DNA of 64,000 bases from Haloarchaeobius iranensis. Its GTDB lineage: Archaea > Halobacteriota > Halobacteria > Halobacteriales > Natrialbaceae. A program made the position numbers and the translations under genes. Position 1 is the first letter of the stretch. Every line of letters starts with the position of its first letter. The notes below the pieces were generated by a model. That model did not search any database, was not told the origin of the DNA, and saw nothing but the letters and a program-made list of their open reading frames with translations. Positions 1 to 5,996 of this stretch are shown here, piece after piece. The DNA lies in NCBI RefSeq assembly GCF_900103505.1, contig NZ_FNIA01000008.1:66489-130488 (forward strand), read 5' to 3'.

Positions 1-338
1 TCTTCGGCGGCGAGGACGAGCAGTTCTTCGAGGAGGACGACGACGAGGTCGGCTCCATCTTCGGTGACGAGAGCGGCGGCATCTTCAGCGGTAGTGACGA
101 CGCCGAAGCCGACGAGGACGATAGCGGGATGTTCGGCTCCAGCGTCGAGGACGCCACAGGGGAAGACGACGGGGTGTTCGACGACACCGACGGGGACGAG
201 GACAGCGTCTTCGGTGCCTCGGACGACGGGGACGACGGAGAGGACAGCGTCTTCGGCGGCGAGGACGACGGGGACGACGGAGAGGACAGCGTCTTCGGCG
301 GCGAGGACGAGGAAGGCGGCACCGGTGATGCAGAATGA
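1..338 (+). CDS. C-terminal acidic tail of an upstream protein, probably a PilB/TadA-type secretion ATPase (5'-truncated)
   Basis: The frame is open from base 3 and encodes about 111 residues made almost entirely of Asp, Glu, Gly and Ser, with recurring DSVFGG-type units. No catalytic motif lies inside the window, so the function is inferred from context. The stop overlaps the start of the PilC-like gene by ATGA, and in haloarchaea the gene immediately upstream of such a PilC is normally the type II/IV secretion ATPase that powers pilus assembly from the cytoplasmic side. The low-complexity tail would be a disordered extension beyond the ATPase core. The ATPase identity is inference; that this is a translated 3' end is well supported by frame, composition and coupling. 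Confidence 0.7.
   Translation, partial: FGGEDEQFFEEDDDEVGSIFGDESGGIFSGSDDAEADEDDSGMFGSSVEDATGEDDGVFDDTDGDEDSVFGASDDGDDGEDSVFGGEDDGDDGEDSVFGGEDEEGGTGDAE
195..308 (+). repeat. In-frame 42-bp tandem repeat encoding acidic DSVFGG units
   Basis: Bases 231-272 and 273-308 are near-identical copies of a 42-bp (14-codon) unit; the second lacks the last codons. A diverged 36-bp copy precedes them at 195-230. The encoded unit is Asp/Glu-rich around a conserved D-S-V-F-G core. Because the unit length is a multiple of three, copy number can change without breaking the frame. Confidence 0.85.
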
Positions 339-2383
339 GCCTCCAGACGCGGACCGACGCCGGTGAGAGCAGCGGGTTCGACGCGTCCACCGACTCGCTC
401 GGTGACATGTTCTACCCGCTGTACGAGCGGCTGTTCGACGAGAACTCCGACTTCGTCGCCGACGTGGAGACGAAGCTCGCGCAGGCGCGGATGGCAGACA
501 CCGTCGAGATGTACCTCTCCCGCTCGCTGGGCATCGGCGTGCTCTCGGGCGGTGCGTTGTGGGCTCTCGGGACCGTCATCGGCTACCTGCTGTTCATGAC
601 GGGCATCGTGCCGACGGACAACATCCTCGGCGCGACGATACCGAATCAGGCGCTCGTCGACCTGGTCAACGCGGTCAAGGTGCCTGCACTGGTCGTCGTG
701 ACCGGCCTGTTCCTCGGGTCCATCGGGTTCGCGATGGGCTTCGGTGCGCTCGTCGCGGTCCCGTACTCGCGTGCCTCGGCGCGCAAGCGCGAGATCAACA
801 TGCTCCTGACGGACGCGGTGTCGTTCATGTACGCGCTGTCCGTCGGCGGCCTGAACCAGCTCGAGATCCTGGAGGCGATGGCGAAGGCAGAGGACACCTA
901 CGGCGAGGTGGCGAAGGAGTTCCAGTCCATCGTCCAGGAGACCGAGTACTTCGACACGGACTACCGGACGGCGATCCGCAATCAGGCGATGGAGACCCCG
1001 AGCGACGAGGTCGCGCAGTTCCTCACGGACATGCTCTCCATCGTCAACTCCGGCGGAGACATGGAGAACTTCCTGAAGGACAAGAAGGACAAGCACATGC
1101 GGACCGCCAAGCAGCAACAGGAGATGACCCTGGAGACGCTGGAGCTGTTCGGCGAGATGTACATGACGCTGTCACTGTTCCCGCTGTTGCTCATCATCAT
1201 CCTGGTCATCATGCGGATGCTGGGCGAGGCGGACGCGATGATGCTGTACGCGACGGTGTACGGACTCATTCCGATGACCGGTGCCGGCTTCCTCGTGCTC
1301 GTCTCGACGGTCAAGCAGGACGAGCCCGGCGACGGCTACCTCAACCCAGCGGACGCCGACGACCGGCTGTCCGTCCAGAAGGGGTCGGGGCTGCTGAACC
1401 TCGGTCTCGTCGAGGAGTACACGGGCGAGTTCTCGATGTTCGACCGCATCAAGAACAAGGAGGGGACCTACGAGACGATGCAGGTGCTCAAGGCACCGCA
1501 CCTCTTCTTCCGGGACAACCCGCTGTACACGCTGGCCCTGACGGTGCCGCTGGTGCTCGTGATCACGGTCGTCGCGATGGTGTCGGGTGCGGTCCCGACG
1601 TCCTGGGACGGGATGATCGACCAGCCGGTCTGGGGCACGTTCATGTACGTCTACATGCCGACGTACATCGTCGTCTTGCCGCTCGCGGTGTTCCGCGAGT
1701 GGAACGTCCGGTCGCGTAGCGTCATCACGAACAGCATCTCCGACAACCTACGGAAGCTGTCGAGCGCGAACGACACCGGCCAGACGCTGCTGGAGTCGCT
1801 CCGGACGGTCTCCGAGACGACGAGCGGGAAGATGGCGACGGAGTTCGAGACGATGCACGCGAAGGTCAACTACGGGATGAGCCTGAAACACGCGCTCGTC
1901 GAGTTCAACAACAAGTACCACATCCCGCGCATGGCGCGGACGGTCAAGCTCATCTCGAAGGCACAGGAGGCCTCCAGTCAGATTACGGACGTGCTGACCA
2001 CCGCGGCACAGGCGTCGGAGAACCAGGACGACATCGAGCGCGAGCGCAAGTCCCGCACCCGGATGCAGGTGGTCATCATCCTGATGACGTACCTGACGCT
2101 GCTCGCGGTCATGGCCATCCTGAAGACGCAGTTCCTCGACGTCCTGACCGGGCTGAACGACGCCAGCGGCGGCGGGGGCGGCGGGGCTTCCGGAGGCCCC
2201 AGCCTCGGCGGTGCGGTGAACACCGGCCGGCTCTCGCTGCTGTTCTTCCACGCGGTGACGATGCAGGCGCTCCTGTCCGGGCTCATCGCGGGCTACATCC
2301 GCGATGCCGACATCATGAGCGGGATGAAGTTCGTCCTCGTGCTGATGACCATCGCACTCGTCGTGTGGGCGGCGGTGGCATGA
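335..2383 (+). CDS. pilC: PilC/TadC-like type II secretion system F-domain membrane protein
   Basis: This is the polytopic membrane platform of a type IV pilus-like or secretion machine, on which a PilB-type ATPase acts. The 682 residues contain two T2SSF-like cytoplasmic helical domains (roughly 155-295 and 465-600), each followed by a hydrophobic helix pair. There are further membrane segments near residues 65-92, 115-141 and 390-440, and a Gly-rich linker near 610-625. This double-domain form is usual for haloarchaeal PilC and related to archaellar FlaJ/ArlJ. The start is fixed by the ATGA overlap with the upstream frame, and the stop overlaps the next gene in the same way, so the genes are probably translationally coupled. 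Which pilus it builds cannot be told from sequence. Confidence 0.93.
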   Translation: MSLQTRTDAGESSGFDASTDSLGDMFYPLYERLFDENSDFVADVETKLAQARMADTVEMYLSRSLGIGVLSGGALWALGTVIGYLLFMTGIVPTDNILGATIPNQALVDLVNAVKVPALVVVTGLFLGSIGFAMGFGALVAVPYSRASARKREINMLLTDAVSFMYALSVGGLNQLEILEAMAKAEDTYGEVAKEFQSIVQETEYFDTDYRTAIRNQAMETPSDEVAQFLTDMLSIVNSGGDMENFLKDKKDKHMRTAKQQQEMTLETLELFGEMYMTLSLFPLLLIIILVIMRMLGEADAMMLYATVYGLIPMTGAGFLVLVSTVKQDEPGDGYLNPADADDRLSVQKGSGLLNLGLVEEYTGEFSMFDRIKNKEGTYETMQVLKAPHLFFRDNPLYTLALTVPLVLVITVVAMVSGAVPTSWDGMIDQPVWGTFMYVYMPTYIVVLPLAVFREWNVRSRSVITNSISDNLRKLSSANDTGQTLLESLRTVSETTSGKMATEFETMHAKVNYGMSLKHALVEFNNKYHIPRMARTVKLISKAQEASSQITDVLTTAAQASENQDDIERERKSRTRMQVVIILMTYLTLLAVMAILKTQFLDVLTGLNDASGGGGGGASGGPSLGGAVNTGRLSLLFFHAVTMQALLSGLIAGYIRDADIMSGMKFVLVLMTIALVVWAAVA

Positions 2384-2925
2384 GAACGATGAAGACGACG
2401 GGAAATACCATGCAGCGCGACTCGGACCGAGCGCAGACCACGCAGGACTTCGCGGTGGGAATCAGCGTCTTCCTGCTGACGGTCGGGTTCACCTTCGGCT
2501 TCCTGCCGACGCTGTTGAGTCCGTTCGGGTCGCCGGTCGGGGACGACATCACGGCCAAGTCCGACCGCGTCGCCGGGACGATGATCAACGATTTCGCCGT
2601 CGACGGCGAGCCGCGGACGCTGAACGCGACCGAACTCGATGCATGGCTCAATACAGACATCGATGGAGACGGGACGGCACTCCGAAACGACGAAGACGAT
2701 CTTCGGGAGTACTTCGGGTTGCGTGCGTCCGCAGATATCAATGTCACAGTGATGAACGTCCAGGAGGGCGGTAACAGGCCTGTGCTCCAGCCACCGACGC
2801 TCACGCGGATGACGGCAGGCGACGACTACCGCTCACAGACACCGGCCGCGTCGACGACGAGGGTCGTCCTCGTCTCGGGTGGCCACTGCGACGTCCAGTG
2901 CGTGCTGGTGGTCCGAGTGTGGTGA
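2380..2925 (+). CDS. Pilin-like protein 1 of the pilus operon (DUF7287-like)
   Basis: A 181-residue protein with a short charged N-terminus, the motif D-R-A-Q (residues 16-19), then one hydrophobic helix and a long polar domain. In haloarchaeal prepilins the PibD peptidase cuts after the small residue of R-[AG]-[QV]; Asp would then be at mature +5, where classical pilins carry Glu. Two cysteines (C-D-V-Q-C) lie just before the C-terminal strand, which ends V-L-V-V-R-V-W. I chose the ATG at 2380 because it forms an ATGA overlap with pilC; an in-frame GTG at 2365 and an ATG at 2410 are alternatives. The family name is from memory; a minor or major pilin role is inference. Confidence 0.8.
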   Translation: MRTMKTTGNTMQRDSDRAQTTQDFAVGISVFLLTVGFTFGFLPTLLSPFGSPVGDDITAKSDRVAGTMINDFAVDGEPRTLNATELDAWLNTDIDGDGTALRNDEDDLREYFGLRASADINVTVMNVQEGGNRPVLQPPTLTRMTAGDDYRSQTPAASTTRVVLVSGGHCDVQCVLVVRVW

Positions 2926-2929
2926 TACG

Positions 2930-3571
2930 ATGAACGACGACAGGTCACAGGCGTACACGTTGGAAGGGTTCATCGGGTCGATACTGCTACTGACGGCCAT
3001 CCTCTTCGCGTTCCAGTCGGTCGTCATCCTCCCCACGACGTCGGGATCGGTGAGTCTCGACATCCAGGAACAACTCCGGACGTCCGCGAACGACGTCATG
3101 ATAATCAGCGGGGACGACGGTGGGCTCTCCTGTCAGGTGCGGTACTGGAACGAATCGTCGGAGCCGTACTTCGCGGAGGGACAGTCGAAGGACCGCGGGT
3201 ACGGCGTGAACCCACCGCCGAACGTCACCACGTGTGACGCCGACGGGACGCAGTTCGGCGCGATGCTGAACGAGACGTTCGGCGAACAGGAGCAGGAGTA
3301 CAACATCATCGTCTCCTACCGGAACAACAGTTCCACGGAGGCGGTGACGATGGTCAGCCGTGGCTCGCCCAACGCGCCGGCGGTCTCGACGACCTACACG
3401 GTTACGCTGTACGACGACCAGCGCATTCTCGGTGATTGCGGTGGTGCACAGTGTCCGACGCTCCCAGCCGCGTACGCCGACAGCAACGTCTACTTCCCGA
3501 TTCCAGAGGCAGACGAGTTCGAGGATAGCCCGATCTACAACGTCGTCGTCGTCCGGGTGGTCATATGGTAG
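2930..3571 (+). CDS. Pilin-like protein 2 of the pilus operon (DUF7288-like)
   Basis: A 213-residue protein beginning M-N-D-D-R-S-Q, followed at once by a hydrophobic helix containing T-L-E-G-F, which resembles the Glu-containing N-terminus of type IV pilins. The rest is a predicted extracytoplasmic domain with four cysteines (two in a G-D-C-G-G-A-Q-C segment) and at least four N-x-S/T sequons. The C-terminus, V-V-V-V-R-V-V-I-W, matches the style of the preceding protein. The start at 2930 lies 4 nt after the upstream stop and puts the R-S-Q motif close to the N-terminus; an upstream in-frame ATG at 2879 would add 17 unlikely residues. Function beyond pilin-like is unknown. Confidence 0.8.
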   Translation: MNDDRSQAYTLEGFIGSILLLTAILFAFQSVVILPTTSGSVSLDIQEQLRTSANDVMIISGDDGGLSCQVRYWNESSEPYFAEGQSKDRGYGVNPPPNVTTCDADGTQFGAMLNETFGEQEQEYNIIVSYRNNSSTEAVTMVSRGSPNAPAVSTTYTVTLYDDQRILGDCGGAQCPTLPAAYADSNVYFPIPEADEFEDSPIYNVVVVRVVIW

Positions 3572-4584
3572 GCATCGACGACGACCCCTCGCGCGGACAG
3601 ATCGTTCTCGTGGGAGCGCTCGCCATCGCGTTCATCGTGCTCGGCATCGTCGTCGTGTTCAACACGAGTCTGTACGCCGAGAACGTCGACTCGACAGGGA
3701 CCGTCTCCTCGGTGAACCAGGCCGAACAGGTGCGACACGCCGGCGGTGACAGCGTCGCCGGCGTCGCATACCGGGTGAACCAGGGAGAGTTTGATTCGAA
3801 CAGTACTGTTGCTGCCGCAGTAAATAGGAACACGAGTAACTTCAGCGCCGTCTGGCAGTCGCTCTACGCACAGTCCCAGCCGTCCGCCGTAAACGCCTCG
3901 CTCGACGGGTCGAACTCGGAGTACGGTGTCCGGGTGTTCCAGTCAACGGACGACGACTTCCGGGCCCGCGCGGACGCTGGGCAGGAGAACTGGAACTTGA
4001 CGCCGTCGGGTGCGTCCCCGACATACTCCGACGTCGGGGAGTTCGACGTGACGCTGGACCGGGGTTCGCTCGACACGACACGGACTGGCGCCTTCCATCT
4101 CGCCGCACTCGGTGGCGATGGCACGGGCAACGAGGCCTGGCGTGTCGTCTGGTTCGTCAACGATTCGTCGAGACTGGACGTCTACGTCGCATCGGGGTCC
4201 GACCCGACAGCACCCAGCGGTTGGGAGAACCAGACGGGCTCCCAGGTCTGCAACGACGTTAGCGTCGGCACGGATATCGAGGTCGACATGGTGAACGGCT
4301 CCATCGACGGGACGTCCTGCTCGTTCGAGTTCACCGACGACCTCTCGTACGTCCCCGGCGAGAACGGCTACGCGGTGCAGTTCGTTAACGGCGACAACGC
4401 GACCGGTCAGTACGACGCACATCTGAGCCAGACGGCGTTCACCATCGGTTCGCCCGTCACGGGTGGTCCAGCACCGTACTACAGCCACATCGTCTGGGAA
4501 GCGAGTGTCGTCGTCGAGTACGACTCGCCGACCGCATCGTACACGCGTACAGTCACAGTCCCCGTCTACAACAGCACACGATGA
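3565..4584 (+). CDS. Pilin-like protein 3, large glycosylatable subunit (DUF7261-like)
   Basis: At 339 residues this is the largest of the five pilin-like proteins. S-R-G-Q (residues 9-12) directly precedes a hydrophobic helix, the haloarchaeal prepilin-type arrangement. The long polar region is very rich in N-x-S/T sequons (about ten) and contains exactly two cysteines (V-C-N-D and S-C-S-F), consistent with an extracellular, glycosylated, disulfide-bonded domain. The start overlaps the preceding stop by 7 nt, and the stop overlaps the next start by ATGA. The local GC is slightly lower around 3785-3840. The precise role is unknown; its size suggests a tip or adhesive subunit, which is speculation. 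Confidence 0.8.
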   Translation: MVGIDDDPSRGQIVLVGALAIAFIVLGIVVVFNTSLYAENVDSTGTVSSVNQAEQVRHAGGDSVAGVAYRVNQGEFDSNSTVAAAVNRNTSNFSAVWQSLYAQSQPSAVNASLDGSNSEYGVRVFQSTDDDFRARADAGQENWNLTPSGASPTYSDVGEFDVTLDRGSLDTTRTGAFHLAALGGDGTGNEAWRVVWFVNDSSRLDVYVASGSDPTAPSGWENQTGSQVCNDVSVGTDIEVDMVNGSIDGTSCSFEFTDDLSYVPGENGYAVQFVNGDNATGQYDAHLSQTAFTIGSPVTGGPAPYYSHIVWEASVVVEYDSPTASYTRTVTVPVYNSTR

Positions 4585-5117
4585 TACGACAACCGACCGA
4601 CGACCGTGGTGTCTCCATCGCACTGACGCACGTCCTGACTATCGGCATCACGACGATCCTCGTCGCAGGCCTGCTCCTCGGTGCGAGTGGCCTGCTCGAG
4701 GAGCGCAAGACCGGAGCCGCACAGACCGAGCTCCGGACGCTGGGGAACCGGATGGCCGAGGACGTCGCGAACGTCGGCCACGAAGCCGACGGTACGAGCG
4801 GGACCATCGTCCTGCAGACCAACCACCCCGCACAGGTGTCGGGGTCCGGGTACAGCGTCTCACTGTACGGGACGTCCGCTCCGGAGTGCGGAACGTACGA
4901 GAGCGATTCGGACGTCGCCTGTCTCGTCATGGAATCGCCACAGGCCAACGTGCAGATCATCGTCCCGTTCCGGAGCACGACGCCCATCACGGAGAGCAGT
5001 GTCAGCGGCGGTGACTTCTTCGTCGTCTACGACGGCTCGACGATCAGCATCAGCGGGCAGCGGTCGCCCGCAGTGGCCCCGCCGTCGGTCCCGCAGGTCT
5101 CGGAGGTGGGCGGATGA
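4581..5117 (+). CDS. Pilin-like protein 4 (DUF7266-like)
   Basis: 178 residues. The N-terminus has D-D-R-G-V-S (residues 7-12) followed by a helix A-L-T-H-V-L-T-I-G-I, very close to the D-R-G-V-S-P-V-I-G signature of haloarchaeal type IV pilins, where PibD cuts after the Gly. Two cysteines (P-E-C-G and V-A-C-L) flank an acidic loop. The start is defined by ATGA overlap with the upstream gene, and the stop overlaps the next start. Of the five, this one looks most like a conventional pilin. Role inferred from motif and operon. Confidence 0.82.
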   Translation: MIRQPTDDRGVSIALTHVLTIGITTILVAGLLLGASGLLEERKTGAAQTELRTLGNRMAEDVANVGHEADGTSGTIVLQTNHPAQVSGSGYSVSLYGTSAPECGTYESDSDVACLVMESPQANVQIIVPFRSTTPITESSVSGGDFFVVYDGSTISISGQRSPAVAPPSVPQVSEVGG

Positions 5118-5860
5118 ACGTTCGCGACGACCGCTCGGTGAGCGACGTGCTCGCGTTCGTCCTCGTCTTCTCCATCATCATCACGTCGGTCGGACTCGTC
5201 TACAGCATCGGGTTCAGCAGCCTGAACGACTTCCAGGAGTCCGAACAGAAGACCAACGCCGCCCGCGCGTTCGACGCGTTCTCGTCGGTGTTCGACGACG
5301 TGGAGGAGGGCCGCGCTGTCGCCCGCAACGGGGAACTCAGGCTCAGCGGTGGCACCATCGAGGTGAGTCGGGAGAGCGAGTTCGACATCAGGGTGGAGAA
5401 CTCGACCGGAGACCCCATCTGGAGCGGGACCAACACCACGGGCTCGCTCCTGTACACGGTCGACGGCACCACCATCGGCTACGAGAACGGCGGCGCGTTC
5501 CGCCAGGACGGCGACGCCTCGGCGATGATCAACGAGCCCTCCTTCCTCTGCGATGGCGACCGCGCGGTCGTCTCGCTGGTCGTGCTCAGAGCCGACGACG
5601 TCACCGCCCAGAGCGGTGACGGGAACGTCCAGATCAAGGCCCGCGCCAACCGGTCCACGGTGCTGTACAGCGCACAGCGGGGTAGCGCGAACGCCGAGAG
5701 CGTCAACCTCTCGGTCACGGACAGCGAGTTCGGGGACGCCTGGGGACGCTACCTCGAGGACAACGGCTGGAGCTACGACTCCGGCGAGTACAGCTGTTCG
5801 GCCGACGTCGTCGTCATCAGAGTGACGGTCATCAACGTCGAGATTCCAGCCCCACGGTGA
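5114..5860 (+). CDS. Pilin-like protein 5 (DUF7289-like), last gene of the pilus operon
   Basis: 248 residues starting M-N-V-R-D-D-R-S-V-S, then a single hydrophobic helix and a polar domain with two cysteines (F-L-C-D-G and Y-S-C-S-A). The C-terminal region contains D-V-V-V-I-R-V-T-V, similar to the terminal strands of pilin-like proteins 1 and 2. The start is set by an ATGA overlap. It is the last gene before tRNA-Arg. The R-S-V motif at residues 7-9 fits a very short prepilin leader. Family assignment is from memory; function inferred from context. Confidence 0.8.
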   Translation: MNVRDDRSVSDVLAFVLVFSIIITSVGLVYSIGFSSLNDFQESEQKTNAARAFDAFSSVFDDVEEGRAVARNGELRLSGGTIEVSRESEFDIRVENSTGDPIWSGTNTTGSLLYTVDGTTIGYENGGAFRQDGDASAMINEPSFLCDGDRAVVSLVVLRADDVTAQSGDGNVQIKARANRSTVLYSAQRGSANAESVNLSVTDSEFGDAWGRYLEDNGWSYDSGEYSCSADVVVIRVTVINVEIPAPR

Positions 5861-5921: not shown

Positions 5922-5996
5922 GGGCGCTTAGCTCAGCCTGGACAGAGTACTTGGCTTCGGACCAAGCTGCCGCGGGTTCAAATCCTGCAGCGCCCA
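5922..5996 (+). tRNA. tRNA-Arg (anticodon UCG)
   Basis: A complete 75-nt cloverleaf. The acceptor stem GGGCGCT (5922-5928) pairs with AGCGCCC (5989-5995), followed by discriminator A. The anticodon stem CTTGG/CCAAG encloses loop CTTCGGA, giving anticodon TCG (5957-5959), which reads CGA arginine codons. The T-arm GCGGG/CCTGC has one G-U pair and a TTCAAAT loop. There is no intron, and CCA is not encoded. Confidence 0.97.

Follow-up and report, generated by a model that had tools for sequence, protein, structure and literature searches.

A co-inherited set of five prepilin-like proteins, one of them modular, adjoins a PilB4-type pilus motor in Haloarchaeobius iranensis

Within a 64,000-nucleotide stretch of the Haloarchaeobius iranensis genome (NZ_FNIA01000008.1; the whole stretch is termed the window, and coordinates are positions within it), five consecutive genes almost certainly encode prepilins that would be cut by a PibD-type peptidase, as judged from their sequences. 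The operon that contains them is very probably that of a PilB4-type type IV pilus, and the joint reading of prepilins together with such a pilus is probable. A PilB4-type pilus with its own pilin set is already known as a computational prediction from 2016 (PMC4858521); new are the site evidence for all five proteins as prepilins, the fixed acidic residues, the cassette maintained in fixed order across the phylum and the modular nature of the DUF7261 member, the last of which suggests an adhesive pilus with adhesive parts at its tip. The best reading is an adhesive pilus for which the cassette would supply minor or tip pilins, with cleavage, assembly and adhesion inferred.

The window begins in the 3' end of pilB (1..338, forward strand, as are all genes of this operon), present as an open-ended frame (3..338) whose full length of 1302 amino acids (aa) begins ~3.6 kb upstream of the window. 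This is followed by pilC (335..2383), encoding the platform protein with two T2SSF domains (Pfam T2SSF 3.4e-27, two stretches), and directly after it by the five pilin genes, which overlap or nearly touch on the same strand: prepilin 1 (DUF7287; 2380..2925; Pfam 5.9e-42), prepilin 2 (DUF7288; 2930..3571; Pfam 4.4e-54), prepilin 3 (DUF7261 in its long, modular form; 3565..4584; Pfam 2.8e-07), prepilin 4 (DUF7266; 4581..5117; Pfam 1.6e-16) and prepilin 5 (DUF7289; 5114..5860; Pfam 1.3e-53). Prepilin 1 comprises 181 aa from an ATGA-coupled start and would have 178 or 170 aa if translation began at one of two later ATGs; the others are 213, 339, 178 and 248 aa long. All five belong to Pfam families of unknown function, an NCBIfam search of the five proteins gave nothing usable and our literature search found no paper naming these families. 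Their N-termini read, in order and with the slash marking the predicted cut, SDRA/QTTQDFAVG (Asp at mature position +5), NDDRS/QAYTLEGF (Glu at +6), DPSRG/QIVLVGAL (no acidic residue at the helix start), DDRG/VSIALTHV (a PilA-like Val-Ser start, no acidic residue) and DDRS/VSDVLAFV (Asp at +3). In each case a charged residue at -2 and Gly, Ala or Ser at -1 stand directly before the single N-terminal hydrophobic helix. The initial annotation, which had read R-[A/S/G]-[Q/V] before the only N-terminal helix of five open reading frames (ORFs) and had placed a PilB/PilC-like machine in the same operon, describes the sequences exactly, and the PilB/PilC pair indeed adjoins the five genes.

Evidence that these are prepilins comes from their homologues, drawn from 80 named loci and from 60 loci that almost all surround DUF7288 matches sampled across the class; as the two sets overlap slightly, with some genomes in both, the counts are partly interdependent. 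An [RK][AGS] site directly preceding the helix was found in 127/129 members of DUF7287, 129/130 of DUF7288, 120/128 of DUF7261, 128/132 of DUF7266 and 129/130 of DUF7289, with most of the misses among these ~130 distinct cassettes being wrong-frame ORFs. Members having a site show Arg at -2 in 99-100% of cases; position +1 is Gln in 97-100% of DUF7287, DUF7288 and DUF7261 members, and DUF7266 and DUF7289 display Val at +1 in 73-74% and Ser at +2 in 88-90%. The acidic residue earlier noted at or near +5 in proteins 1 and 2 proved to be nearly invariant (Asp5 in 99% of DUF7287, Glu6 in 100% of DUF7288), DUF7289 carries Glu or Asp at position 3 in 87% of its members, and neither DUF7261 nor DUF7266 has an acidic residue near the mature N-terminus. 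Alignment of homologous operons across haloarchaea, a check proposed alongside the initial annotation, thus finds the PibD-type sites conserved in each family, in keeping with its suggestion that all five are prepilins.

As a null for chance occurrence we took, from the window and ~398 kb of the same genome, 33 ORFs that resemble genes and have a hydrophobic segment at the N-terminus, a small set in which the gene finder recovered only 2 of the 5 window proteins. The motif was present in 6 of these 33: two of the window's own proteins, two archaellin-like proteins, one from the region around a different pilB and one that is probably spurious, leaving a background rate outside likely PibD substrates of ~1/28 in this small sample. 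The motif is far beyond chance: within each family it occupies one constant position across ~130 haloarchaeal cassettes, and other classes of the phylum retain its core. It could be argued that the five are signal-anchored membrane proteins in which Arg precedes the helix by chance or through topology, as Arg before a transmembrane helix is common (the positive-inside rule); however, with -2 Arg and -1 Gly/Ala/Ser essentially fixed, +1 Gln or Val in most members, an acidic residue inside the hydrophobic start of three families and the low background rate of the motif, this explanation is hardly credible. Profile data add that Pilin_N is also matched by 2/52 DUF7266 and 7/54 DUF7289 members, that DUF7288 and DUF7287 are suggested to share weak similarity over their full length (probability 85%) and that DUF7288 and DUF7261 are similar in the helix alone.

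The strict core of the FlaFind pattern is [KR][GA][ALIFQMVED][ILMVTAS]. Applied as a pattern, rather than through FlaFind itself, it matches three of the five window proteins, with proteins 2 and 5 having Ser at -1; among homologous sites passing the [QV] filter it matches 56/59, 55/59, 53/55, 41/59 and 48/59. Ser at -1 is permitted in archaeal prepilin processing, and PibD of Haloferax volcanii is reported to tolerate differing +1 residues (PMC4371748). A single match to PF01478 (Peptidase_A24) was detected in the genome (contig C53), so that one PibD would have to process Gln-type and Val-type sites alike.

The motor points to the identity of the system. The ATPase frame upstream (T2SSE match, 113.5 bits) has ~555 residues before and 747 after its Walker A motif, compared with 236-269 residues after Walker A in four other pilB paralogues measured in this genome; its C-terminal extension is an acidic low-complexity tail of repeated (E)DSVFG units. 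Other haloarchaeal PilB4 proteins show acidic tails that differ in sequence and length, in frames of ~880 to 1520 aa. According to Makarova et al. 2016, PilB4 of Haloferax volcanii (HVO_1160) carries additional domains at both termini that occur only in Halobacteria and is associated with its own pilin set; its operon was modelled as a type IV pilus of euryarchaea (clade 2), separate from the PilA/PilB3 system (PMC4858521). We observed the same gene order in Haloferax elongans and a DUF7288 match in Haloferax volcanii. On the basis of the long PilB extensions, the own pilin set and the same operon in Haloferax, we file the locus as a PilB4-type pilus: it shares with the 2016 system an extended PilB, a PilC, a dedicated downstream pilin set and occurrence in Haloferax and most haloarchaea. 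Whilst that computational model leaves most pilin roles unclear, and a 2015 review proposed that two pilins of this operon, both FlaFind-positive, build a pilus-like structure (PMC4371748), sites are here described in all five. The initial annotation's statement that this gene set has no assigned function consequently holds for an experimental role, but not for prediction, as a type IV pilus had been put forward in both works. The pilins assigned to the PilB4-type system include arCOG02911 and arCOG03926 among others; DUF7289, which is duplicated and of variable length, resembles arCOG02911, a predicted minor pilin, by description. With the PilA1-6/PilB3-PilC3 system of Haloferax volcanii the locus has in common PibD-type sites ([RD]AVS there), a PilB/PilC motor and the Val-Ser start of DUF7266 and DUF7289; unlike the PilB4 operon with its own set, the PilA genes are solitary and the PilB3-PilC3 operon is without pilin genes. 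PilB4 itself was detected in Haloferax volcanii only in GMM, which we interpret as glycerol minimal medium (PMC7305310), and pilB4-pilC4 were down-regulated in H. gibbonsii during infection by HFTV1 (PMC12542753).

The five families are inherited as one cassette. DUF7288 was found in 111 of 116 haloarchaeal genomes (~96% of those sampled), 134 of 142 haloarchaeal cassettes contain all five genes, the order 7287-7288-7261-7266-7289 holds in 133 of these 134, and pilC lies directly upstream of the quintet in 119/142. Five cassettes are without DUF7261 alone, four of them in one family and one in Halarchaeum. Some genomes carry extra whole quintets without adjacent motor genes and in three loci the quintet is inverted relative to pilC-pilB, which indicates that the quintet moves as a unit. 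In genomes from families other than that of the window, an additional DUF7289 gene is commonly encountered just past the cassette on the opposite strand, including in Haloferax elongans. The extent of co-inheritance bears on the possibility that each of the five is the major pilin of a filament of its own, all built by one motor: PilB3 can assemble any of the six PilA pilins on its own, motor sharing is possible (PMC6491452), and cassettes without an adjacent motor would suit such an arrangement. Against this, five differing families are nearly always co-inherited in one order, three of them each hold the acidic residue at a characteristic position, and interchangeable major pilins are usually close paralogues, which together make separate filaments distinctly improbable. 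A single filament containing all five is the likely arrangement.

We had to discard the notion that the set is restricted to haloarchaea, as full-length DUF7288 relatives occur in the same cassette in other classes of the phylum: 21 complete cassettes were found there, 18 of them in the exact order and usually without an adjacent motor. Because residues other than Arg or Lys also occur at -2 outside haloarchaea, the automatic site finder was not dependable there and aligned starts were read instead; these keep the Gln+1/Asp5, Gln+1/Glu6, Gln+1 and Val-Ser starts, with positions partly read by eye. Four loci from other classes exhibit a sixth, long DUF7289 protein of ~480-530 aa after the quintet, fused to DUF7308 in the two examined. 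The loci L173 and L175 each hold two different quintets side by side, the second type having an enlarged protein in the DUF7287 slot (319-356 aa) and a short DUF7261.

The mature length of DUF7261 is bimodal: among 133 haloarchaeal members, 22 fall at 100-160 aa and 109 at 240 aa or more, with almost none between. Alignment reveals that long members, including that of the window, contain a block of ~190 residues (aa 117-304; 3913..4476) that short homologues lack as a whole. DUF7261 is therefore a modular pilin whose insert is gained or lost as a block. In its AlphaFold2 model (predicted local distance difference test score, pLDDT, 84) a 64-residue first helix (8-71) is followed by a second helix and a beta domain, and the block, which lies between core strands 1 and 2, is predicted to form a jelly roll. 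VIA-align of this model returned Streptococcus sanguinis PilC (7oa7) as its best match (Z 8.4, 129 residues, 3.1 Å), followed by galectin-8/9, Emp46 and ERGIC-53, the leading rows being jelly-roll lectins or related domains. The model of DUF7288 (pLDDT 84) has helices at 6-30 and 40-62 and then four strands. Its structural matches, ribosomal-protein-like and otherwise unrelated (Z <5), were treated as uninformative and not as evidence for a novel fold. Profiles of DUF7288, DUF7289 and DUF7261 had no significant match among PDB sequences, and Pfam detected no lectin family in 40 full-length DUF7261 homologues, so that the lectin claim derives from the model.

Adhesive modules in the cassette are supported independently by Pfam matches in relatives outside haloarchaea. 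In the DUF7261 slot these are the Ig-like domains Big_7 and Big_1 (Big_1 below the Pfam cut-off), and in the DUF7266 slot vWA and PKD domains with DxSxS motifs; one or two slots of the cassette thus take exchangeable adhesion-like modules. In three such loci the DUF7266-slot pilin measures 800-971 aa and contains vWA with DxSxS motifs, together with PKD in one of them. In S. sanguinis, modular pilins with vWA and ConA-lectin domains are part of a proposed tip complex (PMC8179133, PMC9934059). The PilABC pilins of that species (PilC lectin, PilB vWA) may offer a parallel, with a ConA-like or galectin-like module predicted on one pilin here and vWA on another in related archaea, although the likeness is weak at Z 8.4 and the modules are C-terminal in S. 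sanguinis, whereas that of DUF7261 lies between core strands. The modular-pilin survey relied on a signature of bacterial pilins and says nothing about archaea in its text (PMC8179133), nor is an optional DUF7261 module mentioned in the main text of PMC4858521. A second likeness is to the bacterial HIJK pilins of type IVa pili (T4aP) and type II secretion systems (T2SS), GspK especially: both are small co-operonic sets of fixed order with a bulky member that has an insert in its pilin sheet and no acidic residue, but no sequence homology was found and no structural match was obtained, the DUF7288 model having no bacterial pilin match.

The same likeness could be taken to indicate a short membrane-anchored pseudopilus that pushes proteins through the S-layer in the manner of type II secretion, for which the five-subunit set in fixed order, the GspK-like bulky subunit (PMC8179133) and the near-universal occurrence expected of a housekeeping machine can be cited. 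The cassette, however, has no secreted-effector gene, and the modules grafted onto it in relatives (vWA, Ig-like, PKD) are of the adhesion type. To our knowledge haloarchaea have no outer membrane, which removes the ordinary reason for a piston as well. We consider a pseudopilus very improbable: where the initial annotation had left the choice between a multi-component filament and a secretion pseudopilus, the latter gained no positive support and the filament, as a PilB4-type pilus, is favoured.

For this pilus, we envisage that a single PibD-like peptidase would cut five prepilins with class III signal peptides between Ala, Ser or Gly and Gln or Val, upon which the pilins would stay in the membrane by their helix until PilB4/PilC4 extract and polymerise them into a surface filament. 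The five would form one fixed-order set of dedicated pilins, probably mostly minor, in which the acidic residue of DUF7287, DUF7288 and DUF7289 could pair with the new N-terminus of a neighbour, like the bacterial Glu5. Bacterial minor pilins start assembly at the tip, with a cap that lacks Glu5 (PMC9934059, PMC10191384). By this analogy the most suitable candidate for an adhesive subunit that sits outermost at the tip and binds a ligand is DUF7261, which is bulky and has no acidic residue; as DUF7266 lacks that residue too, this feature does not reveal how the tip is ordered. A tip complex capped by a ligand-binding DUF7261 is accordingly only tentatively proposed, and we lean towards adhesion as the main role of the pilus.

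The filament could also be a DNA-uptake or mating pilus that binds DNA or the S-layer glycans of a partner, with surface adhesion secondary. Ups pili of Sulfolobus bind to S-layer glycans in a species-specific manner prior to DNA exchange, it is stated to be open whether the fusion of Haloferax cells is started by pili or by lectins (PMC7064770), and a lectin-like DUF7261 module would fit; yet our literature search found no genetic link of PilB4 to mating or transformation, and no competence genes adjoin the operon. We regard a mating or DNA-uptake role as unlikely.

Several observations weigh against an adhesive PilB4 pilus with these five subunits. Foldseek found no match for the DUF7261 model at E <=0.001 (best 0.047) and a Z of 8.4 lies close to the level seen for models without a true match, so that the jelly-roll fold class of the insert is likely, while kinship to lectins goes beyond what these scores show. 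Neither Foldseek nor VIA-align recognised a pilin in the PDB for the DUF7288 model; for the pilin fold proposed as a check on the initial annotation, the two proteins modelled out of five therefore diverge, with DUF7261 exhibiting the long pilin-like first helix and DUF7288 no pilin match. In the literature we found no phenotype for PilB4 and no experiment showing cleavage or a PilB4 filament, and the best documented adhesion role in Haloferax volcanii belongs to PilB3/PilC3 with PilA1-6 (PMC6491452). Finally, the major pilin may be encoded elsewhere; it is DUF7266 and DUF7289 that have PilA-like Val-Ser starts.

The near-universal cassette nonetheless offers a testable model of a haloarchaeal pilus in terms of a nucleating subunit, a capping subunit and the ligand of the cap. 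If correct, the DUF7261 module would become a candidate lectin for haloarchaeal cell-cell recognition, a question raised for cell fusion (PMC7064770). In its furthest form, which we hold to be possible but rather doubtful, the quintet would be an ancient equivalent in archaea, whether through descent or convergence, of the minor-pilin tip complex of bacteria, its DUF7261 and DUF7266 slots acting as sockets for exchangeable lectin-like, Ig-like and vWA modules, and the haloarchaeal DUF7261 would present a lectin-like module at the pilus tip that binds glycans of a surface or partner cell.

Two further features of this genome were observed. On contig C39, a second pilB-pilC pair is adjoined by DUF7289-like and DUF7266-like genes, with an R-A-Q protein in the same stretch, and represents a second, diverged pilus operon. 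In the window, a tRNA-Arg gene (anticodon TCG) is located at 5922-5996, directly 3' of the operon.

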